This document shows, in pieces, positions 17-46,690 of a stretch of DNA of 55,886 nt. Each line of letters begins with the position of its first letter. The stretch's first letter is position 1. The notes below the pieces were generated by a model. It worked only from the letters and a program-made list of their open reading frames with translations, did not search any database and had not been told where the DNA came from. Both the position numbers and the translations under genes were made by a program. Source of the stretch: Gammaproteobacteria bacterium (GTDB taxonomy: Bacteria; Pseudomonadota; Gammaproteobacteria; S144-34); the NCBI GenBank assembly GCA_026989495.1, contig JALSJE010000090.1, positions 1 through 55,886 of the forward strand, written 5' to 3'.

Positions 17-159
17 ATCGATCCGCTGCGCGGAGCGATCAGCGCGATAGTGCCTTGCATTCCATTTCGATTTTTCGCGTGTCGTCATACACTTCCCTGT
101 GCATGGGCCGTCCCTGGCCGCGGGGAAGGCCTGAAAAGTCTCGATTTTTCAGGCCTTCC
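17..159 (-). repeat. Four-hairpin intergenic element, copy A
   Basis: Read on the minus strand, this begins 35 bases after the YqeY stop with a terminator-like hairpin (124-159; arms GGAAGGCCTGAAAA / TTTTCAGGCCTTCC). It then carries a GGCC dyad, a CATGCAC...GTGTATG hairpin and a final TCCGC-gca-GCGGA hairpin. The same order of modules occurs at 35978-36142 and 46405-46568, and its first two modules at 46633-46690. The left boundary is uncertain because the copy diverges towards the window edge. Confidence 0.85.
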
Positions 160-194: not shown

Positions 195-650
195 TCAGCC
201 GCCCAGTCGGGCCTTGACCCGGGCGCTGAGCGCGCCCATGTCGGCACGTCCCTGGACCTTGGGCTTGAGCCAGCCCATGACCTTGCCCATGTCGCGCATC
301 CCTTGGGCGCCGGTGGCGGCGATGGCCTCCTCGACGAGGGCCTCGAGGGCCGCCTCGTCCAGCGGCTCCGGAAGATAGGCCTGGATCAGCTCGAGCTCGT
401 AGCGCTCCTGCTCGGCCTGCTCGGAGCGACCGGCCTGGGCGTACTGCTCGGCCGCCTCGCGGCGCTGCTTGGCCAGCCGCTGGAGCACGGCGATGCCGGC
501 CGCCTCGTCCAGGGGGCCCTTGCCCTCCTTCTCCTTCTCCTGGAGGGCGGCGAGCACGAGGCGCAGCGCGCGGAGCCGCCGCTGGTCGCGCGCCTTGAGC
601 GCGGCCTTCATGTCCTGCTCGATGCGCGCCTTGAGGGTGGGCTCGGCCAT
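195..650 (-). CDS. GatB/YqeY domain protein
   Basis: This 151-residue protein is a free-standing YqeY-type domain related to the C-terminal tRNA-binding tail domain of the amidotransferase subunit GatB. It is mostly charged helix, opening with a KARIEQDMKAALKARD-type segment and containing a conserved IQAYLPEPLDE stretch, which is the family signature. Its usual length is about 148 residues, so it is complete. It follows rpsU on the same strand, the common gammaproteobacterial order (rpsU-yqeY, normally followed by dnaG and rpoD). Here an intergenic repeat follows instead and the window ends. Its cellular role is not established; tRNA-dependent amidation is an inference from the domain. Confidence 0.93.
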   Translation of the reverse strand: MAEPTLKARIEQDMKAALKARDQRRLRALRLVLAALQEKEKEGKGPLDEAAGIAVLQRLAKQRREAAEQYAQAGRSEQAEQERYELELIQAYLPEPLDEAALEALVEEAIAATGAQGMRDMGKVMGWLKPKVQGRADMGALSARVKARLGG

Positions 651-27698: not shown

Positions 27699-30600
27699 TC
27701 AGGCGCGGGCCTTGCGGCGCGCCGAGAAGACCAGCCAGCGGCGCGGGCGCTCGGGCTCGCCGGGCACGGGGCGCGCCGGCTCGAACTCGGGTGCGCTGCG
27801 GGCGGGCTCGTCCGCGGCGGCCGGATAGATCCGCACCCGCACGTCGTACCAGCCGGCCTGTCCCGTGACGGGGTCGGAGTTGGAGATGCGGCCGCCCGCC
27901 GTGCCGGGCCTGGGCGATGCGGCATCGGGTTCGGCGGCGGTGCCGGCGGCAGGCCGCCCCGCCTGCGGGCGCTGCGGCGCTCCCCGCGACTGCGCGCTGC
28001 GCGCGCCCGTGTCCGCGCCGCCCGCCGTCCCGACCGGGAGCTCCTCGGTGATGAGGTGGTTGAGGAGGAAGCCCTCGCGCCCCTCGTTGGCGTCGGGGGC
28101 GAGGTTCCAGGCCCCGGGCTGCTTGCCGATGGCGTTCCAGGTCCAGACCGTGTTGGGTTCGACCGCCTCGGAGAAGCGGCAGCGGCAGCGCACCCGCCCC
28201 CAGGGCGACTCCACCCACACCCAGCCGCCGTCCTCGACGCCGATGCGCTCGCCGAGGCGCGGGCTCATGTAGAGGTAGTTGTAGGTATGGATCTGGCGCA
28301 GCCAGGCGTTCTGCGAGTCCCAGGAGTGGTACATGGCCATGGGGCGCTGGGTGACGGCGCTGAGCGGGTAGCGCTGCGTGTCCGTCACCTGCGCCTCGAG
28401 CGGCTCGTAGTAGAAGGGCAGCGGATCGAAGTAGGTCTCGACGCGCTTGCGCAGGCGCTCGGGCGGCCGCTTGCCAGGCCACTTGCCCCTGGCGGCGAGC
28501 CGGAACTTCTGCAGCACCTCCGAGTAGATCTGGATCATGATGGGCTCGGCGTAGCGCGTGAGGCGGTGGCGCTGAGCCCACTCCAGGTAGCCCTGGTTCC
28601 AGTTGCGGAAGTACTGGTAGCTGCGCGGCAGCTCGTAGTGGAAGACGCAGCCGTTCTTCTCGTACATCTCCCACTGGCGCGGGTTGGGCTCGCCGCGCAG
28701 GTGCTTCTCGCCGCCCCTGCCGCGCCAGCCGGCGAGGAAGCCGATGCCGGAGCCGGGCTCGGTCTCGTAGTTGACGATGAAGTCCGGGTAGTCGCGGTAC
28801 TTGCGCGAGCCGTCCGGGTTGACGAAGGCCGGGAGCCGCAGGCGCGTGCCGAGCTCGATGAGCACCTCCTGGAAGGGCTTGCATTCGCCGAGCGGCGGCA
28901 CCACCGGGATGCGCACCGAGTCCACCGGCCCGTCGAACTCCGAGATGGGCCGGTCGAGCAGGCTCATGACGTCGTGGCGCTCGAGGTAGGTGGTGTCGGG
29001 CAGCACCAGGTCGGCGAAGGCCACCATCTCCGACTGGAAGGCGTCGCACACCACCAGGAAGGGGATCCTGTACTCCCCGTTCTCGTCCTTGTCGTTGAGC
29101 ATGCGGCGGATCTCCACCGTGTTCATGGTGGAGTTCCAGGCCATGTTGGCCATGAAGATCATGAGCGTGTCGATGCGGTAGGGGTCGCCGCGCCAGGCGT
29201 TGGTGATGACGTTGTGCATCAGCCCGTGCACCGACAGCGGGTACTCCCAGGAGAAGCCCTTGTCGATGCGCACCGGCTCGCCGCGCTCGTCCACGAAGAG
29301 GTCGTCGGGGTCGGCGGGCCAGCCGAGCGGCATGCCGTTGAGGGGCTCGCCCGGGCGAACGTCTGCGGGGCCCTTGGGCGGCTTGGCGCAGGGCGGGATG
29401 GGGCGCGGGAAGGGCGCCTTGTGGCGGAAGCCGCCGGGCCGGTCGATGGTGCCCAGCACCGTCATCAGGATCGAGAGCGCCCGGATGGTGTGGAAACCGT
29501 TGGAGTGGGCGGCCAGGCCCCGCATGGCGTGGAAGGCCACGGGGTTGCCCGTCACCGACTCGTGCTCCTTGCCCCAGGCGTCGGTCCAGGGGATGGGGAG
29601 CTCGATACGGTAGTCGCGCGCGGTCACGCCCATCTCGTGGGCGAGCCGCCGGATGGTCTCGGCCGGGATGCCGGTGATGCGTGCCGCCCACTCGGGCGTG
29701 TAGTCCTTGAGGCGGTCGACCAGGAGCTGGAAGGCCGGCTTGACCGGCGTGCCGTCGTCGAGGCGGAAGCTGCCGAGGAGGTAGGGGTCGGCGCCCTCGG
29801 TGTGGGTGCGCACGGGCCGGTCGGTGTGGCGGTCCCACCAGAGCTGGTTCTGGGGGTCGAAGCAGCCCTCGGGGGCGGGATCGTCCGTGCGCACGAACAG
29901 GCCCTCCTCGGGGCTCGCGGGGTCCACGTTCACCAGCTGCGGCGCGTTGGTGTAGCGCACCAGGAAGTCACGGTCGTAGAGGCCCTTGCGGACGATCTCG
30001 TGGGTGATGGCGAGCAGCAGGGCGCCGTCGGTGCCGGGGCGGATGGGCACCCACTCGTCGGCGATGGCCGAGTAGCCCGTGCGCACCGGGTTGATGGAGA
30101 TGAAGCGCCCGCCCCGGCGCTTGAACCTGGAGATCGCGATCTTGAGCGGATTCGAGTGGTGGTCCTCGGCGGTGCCGATCATCACGAAGAGGCGGGCGCG
30201 CTCCAGGTCCGGGCCGCCGAACTCCCAGAAGGAGCCGCCGATGGTGTAGATCATGCCGGCGGCCATGTTGACCGAGCAGAAGCCGCCGTGGGCCGCGTAG
30301 TTGGGCGTGCCGAACTGCTTGGCGAAGAGCCCCGTGAGGGCCTGCATCTGGTCGCGGCCGGTGAAGAGGGCGAACTGCTTCGGGTCGGTCTCGCGGATGC
30401 GCGCGAGGCGCTCCTCCAGGATGCGGAAGGCCTCGTCCCAGGAGATGGGCTCGAACTCGCCCGCGCCGCGCTCGGCGCCCGGCTTGCGCAGCAGGGGCCG
30501 GGTCAGGCGCGCCGGCGAGTACTGCTTCATGATCCCCGAGGCGCCCTTGGCGCAGATCACCCCCTTGTTGAGGGGGTGGTCGGGATTGCCCTGGATGTAG

Positions 30601-32955: not shown

Positions 32956-34917
32956 ATGGCTGAATACGAGTTCGGAAATCCCGAGATCGTCGAGGAGGAG
33001 GTCGATATCCTCATCATCGGCGGCGGGATGGCGGCCTGCGGCTGCGCTGTGGAGATCGTCCAGTGGGCCGACGGCACGGACCTCAAGATCAAGCTCGTGG
33101 ACAAGGCCGCGCTGTCGCGCTCCGGCGCCGTGGCCCAGGGCCTGTCGGCGATCAACACCTACATGGGTGAGAACGACCCCGCCGACTACGTCCGCTACGT
33201 GCGCGGCGACCTCATGGGCATCGTCCGCGAGGACCTGGTCTATGACGTCGGCCGCCACGTGGACTCCTCGGTGCACCTGTTCGAGGAGTGGGGCCTGCCG
33301 ATCTGGAAGCAGCCGGGCGACGAGGGCAAGAAGCTGGTCGAGGGCGGCAAGCCCGTGCGCTCCGGCCGCTGGCAGATCATGATCAACGGCGAGTCCTACA
33401 AGTGGATCGTGGCCGAGGCGGCGAAGAAGGCGCTCGGCATGGAGAACATCCAGGAGCGCGTCTTCATCGTCAAGCTCGTCAAGGACAAGAACGACCCCGA
33501 GCGCGTCGCCGGCGCCGTGGGCTTCTCGGTCCGCGAGCACAAGGTCTACGTCTACAAGTTCAAGTGCTGCCTGCTCGCCTGCGGCGGCGCGGTGAACGTC
33601 TTCCGTCCGCGCTCGGTCGGCGAGGGCACGGGCCGCGCCTGGTATCCGGTCTGGAACGCCGGCTCCACCTACGCCATGGCCCTGGAGGTGGGCGCCGAGG
33701 CGACCATGATGGAGAACCGCTTCGTGCCGGCCCGCTTCAAGGACGGCTACGGCCCGGTCGGCGCCTGGTTCCTCCTGTTCAAGGCCAAGGCGATGAACGC
33801 CTACGGGGAGGACTACCAGACCAAGAACGCCCATACCCTCGAGGAGCACGGCTACGGGCGCTATGCCAACGGGCCGAAGATGGGCACCTGCCTGCGCAAC
33901 CACCTCATGATGAAGGAGATGCGCGAGGGCCGCGGTCCCATCTTCATGGACACGCCCACCGCCATGGCCAAGCTGGCCGAGACCATGACGCCCAAGGAGA
34001 TCAAGCACCTCGAGGCGGAGGCGTGGGAGGACTTCCTCGACATGACCATCGCCCAGTGCGGCATCTGGGCCGGCGAGAACATCGAGCCGGACAAGAAGAT
34101 GTCCGAGCTCATGCCCACCGAGCCGTACCTGCTGGGCTCCCACGCCGGCTGCGCCGGGCTGTGGGTCTCCGGCCCCGAGGACCTGCCGGGCGTGCCCGAC
34201 CACTACCACTGGGGCTACCGCGCCATGACCACCGTCAAGGGCCTGTTCACGGCCGGTGACGGCGTCGGTGCCTCGGGCCACAAGTTCTCCTCGGGCGCCT
34301 TCACCGAGGGTCGCATCGCCGCCAAGGCGATGGTCAAGTTCGCCCTCGACAACAAGGACTGGAAGCCCGAGCTGGCGAAGTCGGTCGACGAGCTGGTGAA
34401 GGAGATCTACCAGCCCGTGATGACCTTCCTCGAGCACAAGGACTACACCACGGCGATCGACGTCAACCCCCACTACATCACGCCCAAGATGCTGCAGTTC
34501 CGTCTGCAGAAGATCATGGACGAGTACGTGGGCGGCGTCGCGACCTGGTACCAGACCAACGCGAAGATGATGGAGATCGCCGAGCAGAAGCTGCAGATGC
34601 TCAAGGAGGACTCGCTCAAGATGCGGGCGAAGGACCTCCACGAGCTGCTGCGGGCCTGGGAGAACTACCACCGCATCATCGCGGCGGAGGCTCACCTCAA
34701 GCACATCAAGTTCCGCGAGGAGAGCCGCTACCCGGGCTACTACTACCGCACGGACTTCATGGACATCGACGACGACAACTGGAAGTGCTTCGTCAACTCC
34801 AAGTACAACGCGGAGACCGGCGAGTGGACCTTCCGCAAGGTGCCCTATGTGCAGCTCATCAAGCCGGCCGACGACGAGCCGGAGGGCATCAAGCACCCGG
34901 GCGCCAAGGTCGCCTGA
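32956..34917 (+). CDS. aprA: Adenylylsulfate reductase alpha subunit AprA
   Basis: This 653-residue flavoprotein subunit interconverts sulfite plus AMP and APS; in this organism it would oxidise sulfite. It has an N-terminal FAD-binding Rossmann motif (VDILIIGGGMAACGCAVE), a SRSGAVAQGLSAINTYMG segment, GEGTGRAWYPVWNAGSTYAMALE, and a C-terminal helical domain of the fumarate reductase type. The length fits AprA of sulfur oxidisers (about 625-665). It ends 28 bases before a strong terminator hairpin. Its likely electron acceptor is the QmoAB-HdrCB complex encoded at 37296-42398. Confidence 0.98.
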   Translation: MAEYEFGNPEIVEEEVDILIIGGGMAACGCAVEIVQWADGTDLKIKLVDKAALSRSGAVAQGLSAINTYMGENDPADYVRYVRGDLMGIVREDLVYDVGRHVDSSVHLFEEWGLPIWKQPGDEGKKLVEGGKPVRSGRWQIMINGESYKWIVAEAAKKALGMENIQERVFIVKLVKDKNDPERVAGAVGFSVREHKVYVYKFKCCLLACGGAVNVFRPRSVGEGTGRAWYPVWNAGSTYAMALEVGAEATMMENRFVPARFKDGYGPVGAWFLLFKAKAMNAYGEDYQTKNAHTLEEHGYGRYANGPKMGTCLRNHLMMKEMREGRGPIFMDTPTAMAKLAETMTPKEIKHLEAEAWEDFLDMTIAQCGIWAGENIEPDKKMSELMPTEPYLLGSHAGCAGLWVSGPEDLPGVPDHYHWGYRAMTTVKGLFTAGDGVGASGHKFSSGAFTEGRIAAKAMVKFALDNKDWKPELAKSVDELVKEIYQPVMTFLEHKDYTTAIDVNPHYITPKMLQFRLQKIMDEYVGGVATWYQTNAKMMEIAEQKLQMLKEDSLKMRAKDLHELLRAWENYHRIIAAEAHLKHIKFREESRYPGYYYRTDFMDIDDDNWKCFVNSKYNAETGEWTFRKVPYVQLIKPADDEPEGIKHPGAKVA

Positions 34918-34945: not shown

Positions 34946-34985
34946 GGGGCCGGGCGCGGGAGCGCCCGGCCCCTTTTCCTTTGTT
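34946..34985 (+). terminator. Rho-independent terminator after aprA
   Basis: GGGGCCGGGCGC (34946-34957) pairs perfectly with GCGCCCGGCCCC (34962-34973) around a 4-base loop, followed by TTTTCCTTTGTT. This ends the sat-aprBA transcript and separates it from the next gene. Confidence 0.9.
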
Positions 34986-35052
34986 GGACCTGAAGACCAT
35001 GACGGGGCCGTGGCCTCCTGGGCGGCGGCCTGACGCAGCGGGGAACGAGGCC

Positions 35053-35976
35053 ATGAGCGACATCGGCAAGCTGGTGCAGGATCCGCCCAAGGGACCGATC
35101 GAGCCCGTGCGTCTGGGGCTCGACGATGTCATCCAGTTCCACTGTCGGCCCGGCATCGCCTGCTGGAACGCCTGCTGCCGCAGCATCGACATCCAGCTCA
35201 CACCCTATGACGTGCTGAGGCTCTCGCGCAGGCTGGGCATTCCCACCTGGCGGTTCCTCGCCGAGCACGCCGTGCAGTTCGACCTCGATCCGCACGGGAT
35301 GCCGGGCATCAAGCTCAAGCCGGTCGAGGGCGGCACGGAGTGCCGCTTCCTGCGTGAGGAGGGCTGCGGGGTGTACGAGGACCGCCCCGCCGCCTGCCGC
35401 TACTATGCGCTCGGCGCCATGGGGCTGCGCAGGATGGGCACCAGCGAGGTGGAGGACATCTACTTCCTGGTGAAGGAGCCGCACTGCCTCGGCCACAAGG
35501 AGCCGCGCCGCATCACGATCCGCGAGTACCGGCGCGAGCAGGGGGTCGAGAAGTACGACGACATGAACCGGGAGTGGCGCGAGATCGTGCTCAAGAAGCG
35601 CTCTTCCGGCCCCACCATCGGCGCGCCTTCCGAGCGCAGCTTCGACCTCTTCTTCATGGCGAGCTACGACCTCGACAGCTTCCGGCTCTTCACCCAGAGC
35701 GAAGGCTTCCGCGAGATGTTCGACCTGCCGGAGGCCGAGCTGAAACGGCTCGAGGAGGACGACGAGGCGCTGCTCGCCTTCGCCATGCGCTTCCTGAAGC
35801 AGGTCCTGTTCGGCGAGCAGACCATCCCCCTGCGGCCCGGGGCGCGGGAGCGGCGCCTGGCGCGGCGTAAGGACAAGATCGAGCAGCGGCTCAAGGCCGA
35901 GGCCGCGCGCCGCGAGGCGCACGATCCGAGATATGACGAACCCGGCGAGGACGAGGGCAAGGGGAAGAGCGACTAA
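35053..35976 (+). CDS. YkgJ-family cysteine-cluster protein
   Basis: This 307-residue protein has an N-terminal Cys-rich zinc/iron-chelating domain of the YkgJ/CxxCxxCC type (HCRPGIACWNACCRSIDI, then CRFLREEGCGVYEDRPAACRYYA) up to about residue 120. A charged helical C-terminal half with no recognised domain follows. It begins 135 bases after aprA, beyond a terminator, so it may have its own promoter, although read-through is possible. A role in metal-centre assembly for the island is conceivable but unproven. The start is the ATG giving MSDIGKLVQDPPKG. Repeat copy B begins 2 bases after its stop. Confidence 0.85.
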   Translation: MSDIGKLVQDPPKGPIEPVRLGLDDVIQFHCRPGIACWNACCRSIDIQLTPYDVLRLSRRLGIPTWRFLAEHAVQFDLDPHGMPGIKLKPVEGGTECRFLREEGCGVYEDRPAACRYYALGAMGLRRMGTSEVEDIYFLVKEPHCLGHKEPRRITIREYRREQGVEKYDDMNREWREIVLKKRSSGPTIGAPSERSFDLFFMASYDLDSFRLFTQSEGFREMFDLPEAELKRLEEDDEALLAFAMRFLKQVLFGEQTIPLRPGARERRLARRKDKIEQRLKAEAARREAHDPRYDEPGEDEGKGKSD

Positions 35977-35977
35977 A

Positions 35978-36142
35978 GGAAGGGCTGAAAAATCTCGATT
36001 TTTCAGGGCTTCCCCGCGGCCAGGGACGGCCGCGGAATGGTCCATGCACAGGGAAGTGCATGACGACAAACGGAAAATCGAGATGGACCGCGAAGCGCCA
36101 TCGCGCTGATCAGTCCGCGCAGCGGATTGATCAGAGTTTCCG
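35978..36142 (+). repeat. Four-hairpin intergenic element, copy B
   Basis: This is the clearest copy. H1 is 35978-36013, a terminator-like stem with two internal mismatches. H2 is CCGCGGCC (36014-36021) with GGCCGCGG (36028-36035). H3 is CATGCAC (36043-36049) with GTGCATG (36056-36062). H4 is TGATCA-g-TCCGC (36107-36118) with GCGGA-t-TGATCA (36122-36133). It fills the whole gap between the convergent YkgJ-type gene and the PstS-like gene. Confidence 0.92.
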
Positions 36143-36146
36143 TTCA

Positions 36147-37088
36147 CTATCTGCGATACAGGCCACGCTCGCGCGCGCGCTTCTCCTGCTCCACCTCCTT
36201 CATCACCAGGCGCAGGGCCTCCAGATAGGGCACGGTGCCGTTCTCCCGGATGACACGCCGGCCCGCCGAGCTGTGGGCGAACTTCACGAACTTCTCGAGC
36301 TCGGCGTAGCCGGGGTGGTTGGGGTTGAGCACCAGGTAGAGGGGGCGGTAGAGGAGGTACTCACCCTTCCTGATGTTCTCGAAGGTGGGCTCCTTGCCCT
36401 CCAGCTTCAGGATCTTGACCTTGCGCTTGCGGGCGCTGGAGATGCCGGTGATCCCGACGGCATTGACGTCCTTCTCCACCGCCTTCTCCAGCGGGCCCGA
36501 GGACTTCACCACCTTGTAGGCCTTGAACTCGACGTCGTAGTCGGCGAAGACCAGCTTGCGGATGGCCCGCCCCACGCCGGAGATCTTGCCGCGGCGAACG
36601 TACAGCCGGATGGGCGCGTCGTTGCCGCCGAGCTCCTTCCAGTTGCGGATCTTGCCCAGGTAGAGGCCGCGAATCTGGTCGAGGGTGATGTCGGAGACGG
36701 GGTTGTCGGGGTGGACGATCACCGCCAGCGCGTCCCAGGCCACCGGACGGAGCTCGGCGCCGAGCTCCTGCGGGTGGCCCGTGATCTTGTTGCGGCAGGA
36801 GCCGCCGATGTCGGCCTTGCCGGCGGCGACCTCGCGGATGCCGCGCGTGGCGCCTCCGCCCTCGATCTCGATCTTCACGCCGGTCCTGGCCTCGTAGGCG
36901 GCCGCGAGCTCCTTCATGAAGGCCTTCTTGGTGATGCCGCAGCCGACCCAGCGGTAGGTCTTCTTGGACGGTGCCGCAGCCGGACCGGGCTTCGCGGCAC
37001 CCTGATCTGAGGCGCCCAGGACGTTCCCCACGGGAAAGGCCAGGGTGGCGGCCAGGATGCCGCCCGCCAGGAAACGCAACCCGCGCAT
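36147..37088 (-). CDS. PstS-like periplasmic substrate-binding protein
   Basis: This 313-residue type II periplasmic binding protein of the phosphate-binding (PBP-like) group has a signal peptide ending near VLGA. Then come YRWVGCGITKKAFMKEL, EIEGGGATRGIREVAAGKADIGGSCR and PVAWDALAVIVHPDNPVSDITLDQIRG, standard PstS-family segments. No ABC permease or ATPase gene is nearby, so it is an orphan. Its place between aprBA and qmo-hdr suggests a link to sulfur oxidation or oxyanion sensing, but the ligand cannot be told from sequence. An AGGAGGA site and a perfect TATAAT precede it. Confidence 0.85.
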   Translation of the reverse strand: MRGLRFLAGGILAATLAFPVGNVLGASDQGAAKPGPAAAPSKKTYRWVGCGITKKAFMKELAAAYEARTGVKIEIEGGGATRGIREVAAGKADIGGSCRNKITGHPQELGAELRPVAWDALAVIVHPDNPVSDITLDQIRGLYLGKIRNWKELGGNDAPIRLYVRRGKISGVGRAIRKLVFADYDVEFKAYKVVKSSGPLEKAVEKDVNAVGITGISSARKRKVKILKLEGKEPTFENIRKGEYLLYRPLYLVLNPNHPGYAELEKFVKFAHSSAGRRVIRENGTVPYLEALRLVMKEVEQEKRARERGLYRR

Positions 37089-45889: not shown

Positions 45890-46402
45890 ATGGGAACGGT
45901 GCCGACAGTCAGTGCCGCCCCGGTCCGCACGGTGGATCTCACGGGGCTCGGCCTGCACCGCCTGCTGCCCGAGCTGCGCCGGGCGCTCGCGGCCGTGGAC
46001 GTGGGCCAGGTGGTGCGCTTCGTGTGCGACGCCCCGGGCGTGGCCGAGGACGTGCGCGCCTGGGCCCGCCACCTGGGCTACGAGATCACCGAGCTGGTGC
46101 GCCGCGGAAGGCTGGTGCACGTGGACGTGCGCAACGGCGATCCCTGGACCCCGTGGCGCACCCTCCGTCTCGAGGGCGAGCGCTGCCCGCGGCCTGCGGT
46201 GGAGGCGCGCCGGGCGCTCGCGGCCATGCCGCCGGGGGCGGTCCTGAAGCTGGTGAGCGGCTGTCCCGGCGCGCCCACGGACATCCCCGCGTGGGCGGCC
46301 CGCACCGGCCATACGCTCCTGGGCGCCACCCGCGACGCCGATGGCGTGTGGTCCTTCTACCTTCGGGCCCGACCGGCGGACGCCCCTGCGCGGGTTTCCT
46401 GA
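45890..46402 (+). CDS. Tandem TusA-like sulfur carrier protein
   Basis: This 170-residue protein consists of two TusA-like (SirA) domains, residues ~13-82 and ~90-166, joined directly. The second has the sulfur-carrying motif C99-P100-x-P102 (EGERCPRP), followed by ARRALAAMPPG and TDIPAWAARTGH, the standard TusA pattern. The first aligns without gaps (LTGLGLHR, then RRALAAVDVG) but has Leu22-His23 in place of Cys-Pro, so it cannot carry a persulfide there. Each domain has another Cys in the equivalent strand (Cys46, Cys125). A GGGAGGAA site makes the ATG start clear. It lies 193 bases after the CbbO/NorD-type gene. A role in cytoplasmic sulfur transfer is inferred. Confidence 0.85.
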   Translation: MGTVPTVSAAPVRTVDLTGLGLHRLLPELRRALAAVDVGQVVRFVCDAPGVAEDVRAWARHLGYEITELVRRGRLVHVDVRNGDPWTPWRTLRLEGERCPRPAVEARRALAAMPPGAVLKLVSGCPGAPTDIPAWAARTGHTLLGATRDADGVWSFYLRARPADAPARVS

Positions 46403-46404
46403 AG

Positions 46405-46568
46405 GGAAGGTCTGAAAAATGGCGATTTTTCAGGCCTTCCCCGCGGCCAGGGACGGCCGCGGGAGGGGCCATGCACAGGGAAGTGCATGACGACTCAAGG
46501 AAAATCAGAATGACCGCGAAGCACTATCGCGCTGATCGATCCGCGCAGCGGATTGATCAGAGTTTCCG
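46405..46568 (+). repeat. Four-hairpin intergenic element, copy C
   Basis: It starts 2 bases after the stop of the tandem TusA-like gene. H1 is 46405-46440 (one G-T pair, 4-base loop), followed by the CCGCGGCC/GGCCGCGG stem, the CATGCAC/GTGCATG stem and the TCCGC-gca-GCGGA stem in the same order as copy B. It lies on the left side of the gap before convergent pyrE. Confidence 0.92.
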
Positions 46569-46632
46569 AAGAAAATCCTGATAGATCCGCCGTGCGGCTG
46601 GATTCAGCGCGAAGGTGCTTCGCGATCCAACT

Positions 46633-46690
46633 GGAAGGGCTGAAAAATCACGGTTTTTCAGCCCTCCCCCGTGGCCAGGGATGGCCGCGG
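46633..46690 (+). repeat. Four-hairpin element, partial copy D
   Basis: Only H1 (GGAAGGGCTGAAAAA with TTTTTCAGCCCTCCC, one mismatch) and H2 (CCGTGGCC with GGCCGCGG, one G-T pair) remain. It follows copy C by 64 bases, which hold a CGCGAAG-gtg-CTTCGCG hairpin (46608-46624) and a degraded H4-like sequence. Confidence 0.85.

Follow-up and report, generated by a model that had tools for sequence, protein, structure and literature searches.

A mobile MITE of a gammaproteobacterium with paired hairpins that match the CsrA/RsmE recognition consensus

The stretch of DNA analysed here (hereafter the window) comprises 55,886 nucleotides from a member of the Gammaproteobacteria and carries several copies of a dispersed repeat, one of which (copy B in Table 1) lies between a gene for a CxxCxxCC-domain protein on the left (34981-35976, plus strand) and a gene for a PBP-domain protein on the right (36147-37088, minus strand). 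In the same neighbourhood, positions 32956-34917 encode a protein with an FAD-binding domain and a fumarate-reductase-type C-terminal domain; as far as can be guessed from this domain content, it is possibly the alpha subunit of adenylylsulfate reductase, which hints at a sulfur-metabolising host. The consensus of the repeat is 164 bp long, from GGAAG to GTTTCC, and includes four hairpins, H1 to H4, with H1 formed by GGAAGNNCTGAAAAATC..GATTTTTCAGNNCTTCC and H4 by GATCAATCCGC-GCA-GCGGATTGATC. The first-pass annotation of this DNA had placed four copies in the window and described four stems common to them in the same order; the copies are indeed there, with their ends refined as listed in Table 1, and the shared stems are real on reading of the sequence. 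The individual differences that it had pointed out are also present, namely the double change in H1 between GGCCTG/CAGGCC in copy A and GGGCTG/CAGCCC in copy D, the H4 pair that is A-T in copy B, G-C in copy A and G-T in copy C, and the G-T pairs in H3 of copy A and in H2 of copy D. The description of H1 as terminator-like needs correcting: the T-run forms part of the 3' arm itself and no U-tract follows the stem, so that H1 as a classical intrinsic terminator is ruled out. In copy A, a deletion shortens the stem of H2 and the 3' end, and both of the ANGGAN loops discussed below are retained.

Table 1. Copies of the element in the window, with the parts of copy B and the target-site duplications of copy C
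Feature	Position	Strand	Evidence
MITE copy B, full (164 bp)	35978..36141	+	sequence, genome matches
5' terminal inverted repeat GGAAGNNCTGAAAAATC, also outer arm of H1	35978..35994	+	13/17 match to 3' terminal repeat, consensus
Terminal inverted repeat of the 3' end (as reverse complement, GGAAACTCTGATCAATC), at the same time an arm of H4	36125..36141	-	
H1, terminal palindrome hairpin	35978..36013	+	strongest covariation
H2, hairpin CCGCGGCC-AGGGAC-GGCCGCGG; loop 36022-36027 fits ANGGAN (CsrA/RsmE consensus)	36014..36035	+	
H3, hairpin CATGCAC-AGGGAA-GTGCATG; loop 36050-36055 fits ANGGAN	36043..36062	+	
H4, hairpin GATC..TCCGC-GCA-GCGGA..GATC, 3' end of element	36108..36132	+	covariation
MITE copy C, full; begins 2 nt past stop codon of TusA-domain gene	46405..46567	+	
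Target-site duplication GAAG, left of copy C	46401..46404	.	
Target-site duplication GAAG, right of copy C	46568..46571	.	
Copy D, 5' fragment of a further copy, H1 and H2 only	46633..46690	+	
Copy A, 3' of YqeY-domain gene (195-650, minus strand)	17..159	-	

The dispersal of the element, likewise proposed in the first-pass annotation, is far above chance. A sequence search of the same genome (2.54 Mb in 143 contigs) retrieves at least 41 near-full matches, and a search with the two inner stems fixed and the loops free gives 76 matches, against 1 for the reversed-pattern control. We extracted 83 full copies, related copies being counted as separate, from 1.02 Mb of the 2.54-Mb genome, a sample that consists of stretches picked because they contain copies; this number is a minimum for the genome. 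Two sister genomes of the same genus (G001 and G002) hold many more copies, which are 83-89% identical. According to a home-made and approximate gene caller, which assigns 89.5% of the first 0.78 Mb to coding sequence, 1 of the 74 placed copies is inside a called gene and the other 73 are outside; between co-directional genes, sense copies outnumber antisense copies 31 to 13 (p = 0.0096), and convergent regions are not strongly preferred to divergent ones in this genome. The nearest start codon is tens of bases away from most copies, so occlusion of ribosome-binding sites would be exceptional. A good candidate for an effect in cis is the copy at L211:16385-16548, which directly adjoins an AAGGAGG ribosome-binding site and has a start codon about 20 nt downstream of it.

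The element is a MITE, that is, a non-coding, multi-copy, intergenic unit of 164 bp, under the limit of about 500 bp, with imperfect terminal inverted repeats (GGAAGGTCTGAAAAATC and GGAAACTCTGATCAATC, 13 of 17 positions matching in the consensus). Exact 4-bp duplications flank 35 of 82 copies, compared to a mean of 0.87 after shuffling, and among the same 82 copies there is no excess of duplications of 3 or 5-7 bp. The copy at L211:16385-16548, where GAAA is duplicated, has a simple pre-insertion site in both G001 and G002: the aligned sister sequence runs straight through the site of insertion, and the matches of the two flanks overlap by 5 bases. Copy number and sites differ among the three species, and nested and tandem remnants of the element ends are common. 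Mobility of the element is thus near certain. In the window, copy C is missing from both sister genomes, with G002 carrying a separate copy close by; copy B, which has no target duplication, is also absent from both sisters at the orthologous position, where some 100 bp of different sequence stand between the two genes that flank copy B. The segment between copy C and fragment D (46568-46632) looks like what remains, in inverted orientation, of the 3' end of a further copy, so that the entire region 46405-46690 is apparently a composite of nested insertions.

A mobilising transposase was not found among the DDE_Tnp_1 genes of the three genomes; in particular, the one DDE_Tnp_1 gene of the genome to which the window belongs, on contig C47, and the one of G001 were considered as parts of a parent IS and rejected, the ends not matching in either case. 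MITEs can outlive their parent element, and therefore a missing autonomous parent is compatible with membership in this class.

Besides this transposed nature of the element, manifest in the terminal repeats and 4-bp duplications, the first-pass annotation overlooked a second feature: the loops of the two inner hairpins are hexaloops of the CsrA/RsmE consensus. Both H2 and H3 display ANGGAN hexaloops on stems closed by a C-G pair. In each of the 152 loops, G occupies positions 3 and 4 (304/304); position 5 is A in 148 of the 152, with position 2 varying in 28; counted by parsimony, the changes in the six consecutive loop columns are 6-16-3-0-4-12 for H2 and 3-12-0-0-0-4 for H3, the mean for the other unpaired columns being 8.4. 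In the predicted fold, both loops are fully open, and the distance from GGA to GGA is 28 nt. The high-affinity site for CsrA or RsmE is an ANGGAX hexaloop placed directly on a stem, in which the looped-out N and X are variable (PMC4005645), and the consensus of RsmA and RsmN is ANGGAN (PMC3791407). The genome encodes one canonical csrA, the product of which has the RNA-binding residues L4 and R44 and is close to the solved CsrA/RsmA proteins and to the RsmE structure 2jpp. Given this consensus from the literature and a csrA gene in the genome, it is likely, on sequence grounds, that CsrA recognises the cargo of the MITE. With respect to such hairpins in general, the sample contains 175 ANGGAN hexaloops on perfect 5-bp stems, of which only 19 are left after masking of the element, 8 of these 19 still having its stem; after masking, ANGGAN does not exceed the majority of the other loop classes in number. 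Thus, the element supplies about 90% of the ANGGAN hairpins in the sample.

To what extent is the fold itself maintained? When all column pairs are ranked by covariation over 107 copies of the three species, the twelve highest include the H1 pairs 6-31, 7-30, 4-33, 2-35 and 8-29 and the H4 pair 133-153; the H1 pairs dominate the ranking, and the H4 pair comes next. Parsimony yields 46 changes from one Watson-Crick pair to another in H1 and 11 in H4, approximate counts given that the tree is weakly resolved, and in the diverged copy L266:6284-6411 the arms of H1 and H4 are wholly different and still paired. The pair-preserving change that had been suspected from the copies in the window is accordingly well founded. 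The stems of H2 and H3 hardly vary in this genus, and hence covariation cannot test them here. Within the genus, H1 has no RNA-strand bias (34 G-T versus 32 A-C events), so that the folding molecule is not indicated and the palindrome may be kept up at the DNA level. Stem constraint is likewise not detected among singleton substitutions (0.43-0.73 per stem column versus 0.55 for unpaired columns), so the comparison of stems with loops that the first-pass annotation had called for shows no per-copy bias; nor do the singletons of this genus avoid the GGA positions. All four stems are conserved at the level of lineages, and the constraint is seen between source lineages and is not detectable in individual copies after insertion. 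These may decay neutrally once inserted, and the per-copy signal could be obscured by errors in the assembly or by the young age of the copies.

Relatives of the double hairpin are found in other Gammaproteobacteria. Scanning of GTDB contigs for GGCC-ANGGAN-GGCC / GCAC-ANGGAN-GTGC returns at least 109 stretches, and the matches listed come mainly from dozens of Marinobacter genomes, along with Halomonas, Haliea, Parahaliea, Microbulbifer, Idiomarina, Sedimenticola, a Solemya symbiont and the present genus. In 12 Marinobacter genomes searched with the loops free in the query, each genome has 1-32 copies, and the reversed-pattern control gives zero; both loops are ANGGAN in 60 of the 60 distinct Marinobacter cores tabulated, with A, G, G and A at positions 1, 3, 4 and 5 and variation at positions 2 and 6. 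An outer stem (median 28 bp, with a locus-specific sequence) surrounds the core in 101 of 102 Marinobacter elements, and in these outer stems G-T outnumbers A-C 88 to 13 (p = 7.5e-15; the scoring favours neither mismatch). This large excess of G-T indicates that the strand that shows GGA in its loops, that is, RNA, is selected to pair, and selection on the RNA fold in the Marinobacter relatives is clear. The Marinobacter elements are located at the ends of genes, 36 of them in convergent and 4 in divergent positions. The claim of the first-pass annotation that the folded form is selected can therefore be retained in part: the pair-preserving change and the strand bias of the relatives speak for it, whereas the unbiased H1 of this genus and the equal rates of private substitution in stems and unpaired positions do not. 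The search with a covariance model that had also been proposed was productive: out of 275 genomes from the class, 54 have a match to the double-hairpin model at E <= 0.01 (the E-values being rough), and many of these contain at least 4 copies. When genomes are drawn from the whole phylum, those with high scores and multiple copies all belong to the same class, with only weak matches outside it. These relatives may share ancestry with the core of the MITE or may have converged on the same protein, the inner stems having been fixed by the query.

All this considered, we regard as probable the interpretation of the element as a non-autonomous MITE of about 164 bp that carries, as cargo, paired hairpins predicted to bind CsrA with high affinity. 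A transposase would act in trans on the terminal repeats; in a copy transcribed in the sense direction, H2 and H3, with their 28-nt spacing, could jointly bind one CsrA dimer; and many transcribed copies might bring CsrA to neighbouring mRNAs or jointly constitute a dispersed sponge. A physiological effect of the copies is, in our view, slightly less likely than not. A broader proposal is that an undescribed, class-wide dispersed RNA element, with paired ANGGAN hairpins each holding one CsrA dimer, was captured by a MITE in this genus, providing mobile CsrA capacity in the form of a distributed sponge or a roving regulon; we put it forward tentatively, as a possibility that falls just short of an even prospect.

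The main rival is a purely selfish MITE with inherited cargo, in which H1 and H4 are transposase-binding ends, and H2 and H3 are baggage from the DNA captured at its origin, with nothing in the element acting on CsrA. Transposition is established, private substitutions show constraint in neither stems nor loops, and the strongest covariation is in H1, which contains a terminal repeat and lacks the strand bias of an RNA, all as such a MITE would have it. Nevertheless, no columns of the family change less than the GGA positions and the stems of H2 and H3, whereas N2 and N6 are free to vary; other genera conserve this double ANGGAN hairpin in unrelated contexts, and the copies are biased to the sense orientation (31:13), so that we consider mere baggage rather unlikely. 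Still less probable is the possibility that the stems are kept paired by mutation, namely quasi-palindrome correction through template switching in replication, as opposed to selection. The near-perfect palindrome of H1 and its equal numbers of G-T and A-C intermediates are what such a DNA-level process predicts, but it leaves unexplained both an invariant GGA next to a variable N and the 88:13 ratio in the Marinobacter relatives.

The view of the first-pass annotation, in which selection at every single site has spread a structured regulatory RNA, with no mobile element involved, accommodates the pair-preserving changes and fits the Marinobacter relatives, given their G-T excess and 3'-end sites (36 convergent versus 4 divergent). 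For this genus, however, it is contradicted by the evidence of insertion, that is, terminal repeats, 4-bp duplications and empty sister sites, and the singletons reveal no per-copy constraint, which makes it very improbable. Equally hard to credit are repeats of the REP/REPIN type moved by a RAYT transposase: intergenic hairpin repeats, some in tandem or inverted pairs, and the 3'-end placement in Marinobacter are reminiscent of this group, whereas the length of about 164 bp, the terminal inverted repeats and the duplication of 4 bp at the target are characteristics of DDE-type MITEs. More generally, the element shares with REP, BIME and REPIN sequences the dispersed intergenic palindromes, some of them inverted pairs and, in Marinobacter, near 3' ends, and differs from them in length, ends and duplications and in that its loops are protein-recognition hexaloops.

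As a CsrA-binding MITE, the element would combine traits of two known systems. Like the bacterial MITEs Correia/CREE, ERIC and MITEAba12, it is short and non-coding, has terminal inverted repeats, short target duplications and many intergenic copies, and would fold when transcribed; unlike them, it carries two hairpins of the CsrA consensus as cargo. Multiple ANGGA hairpin loops of the high-affinity type are typical of the sponge RNAs CsrB/CsrC and RsmX/Y/Z/W (PMC4005645, PMC3791407), but these concentrate many sites in one sRNA whereas the MITE has two sites per copy, spread over many loci. The double-ANGGAN elements of Marinobacter and other Gammaproteobacteria have the same inner stems in the same order, GGCC-ANGGAN-GGCC followed by GCAC-ANGGAN-GTGC, and are distinguished by the long locus-specific outer stem and the location mostly at convergent 3' ends. 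Neither the MITE nor its double-hairpin relatives give a gathering-level match in Rfam, matches being sub-threshold only, among them RsmW against one sister copy (25.7 bits, with a cut-off of 52 bits, E 0.51), and we found no description of the element sequences, or of the concept of a MITE with CsrA/RsmA sites, in the open-licence literature. In the case of the TAACTGA repeats of Beggiatoaceae, recognition by canonical CsrA was judged unlikely by the author (PMC4679880).

For Marinobacter and other culturable genera, the class-wide relatives, unknown to Rfam, provide directly testable candidates for 3'-end RNAs that bind CsrA. The free level of CsrA, which regulates globally and post-transcriptionally, is set by a few dedicated sponge RNAs. 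If the hypothesis is true, a transposon with ready-made CsrA hairpins would be a simple route by which mobile DNA could wire, rewire or buffer a regulon, and at each place of insertion the element may establish CsrA regulation or absorb it.

Several other sequences are worth recording. In the stretches L059-L167, mainly from Marinobacter, the dispersed RNA element has three stems, with the two ANGGAN hairpins inside a long locus-specific stem, and double ANGGAN hairpins within long, near-perfect inverted repeats occur in other families (L289 of G261, L292 of G114 and L288 of G226), which could be further MITE-like carriers. Solo 3'-end palindromes GGAAACTCTGATCAATCCGC..GCGGATTGATCAGAGTTTCC of about 40 bp, at L230:22-64 and L276:12764-12806, perhaps have a mobility of their own or are footprints. 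A plain DNA search of other families of the class gave four weak matches (L035-L038), of which L035 and L036 resemble the element over a short length and L037 and L038 appear to be chance matches to coding sequence; near position 1500 of L036 (G017, from a different family), a short palindrome GGAAGCGCTGATCAATCCG..CGGATTGATCAGGGATTC is similar to the 3' end of the MITE and may point to the lineage of the parental IS. Finally, a longer variant of the MITE in G001 and G002 (L249-L254) contains a very stable, GC-rich folded insert of about 130 nt exactly between H2 and H3. Sequences similar to parts of this insert, mostly to its 3' half, are present in the window at 27959-28021 and in L203, L222, L234, L235 and L260, with several tandem units in L234, and apparently represent a second dispersed repeat family.
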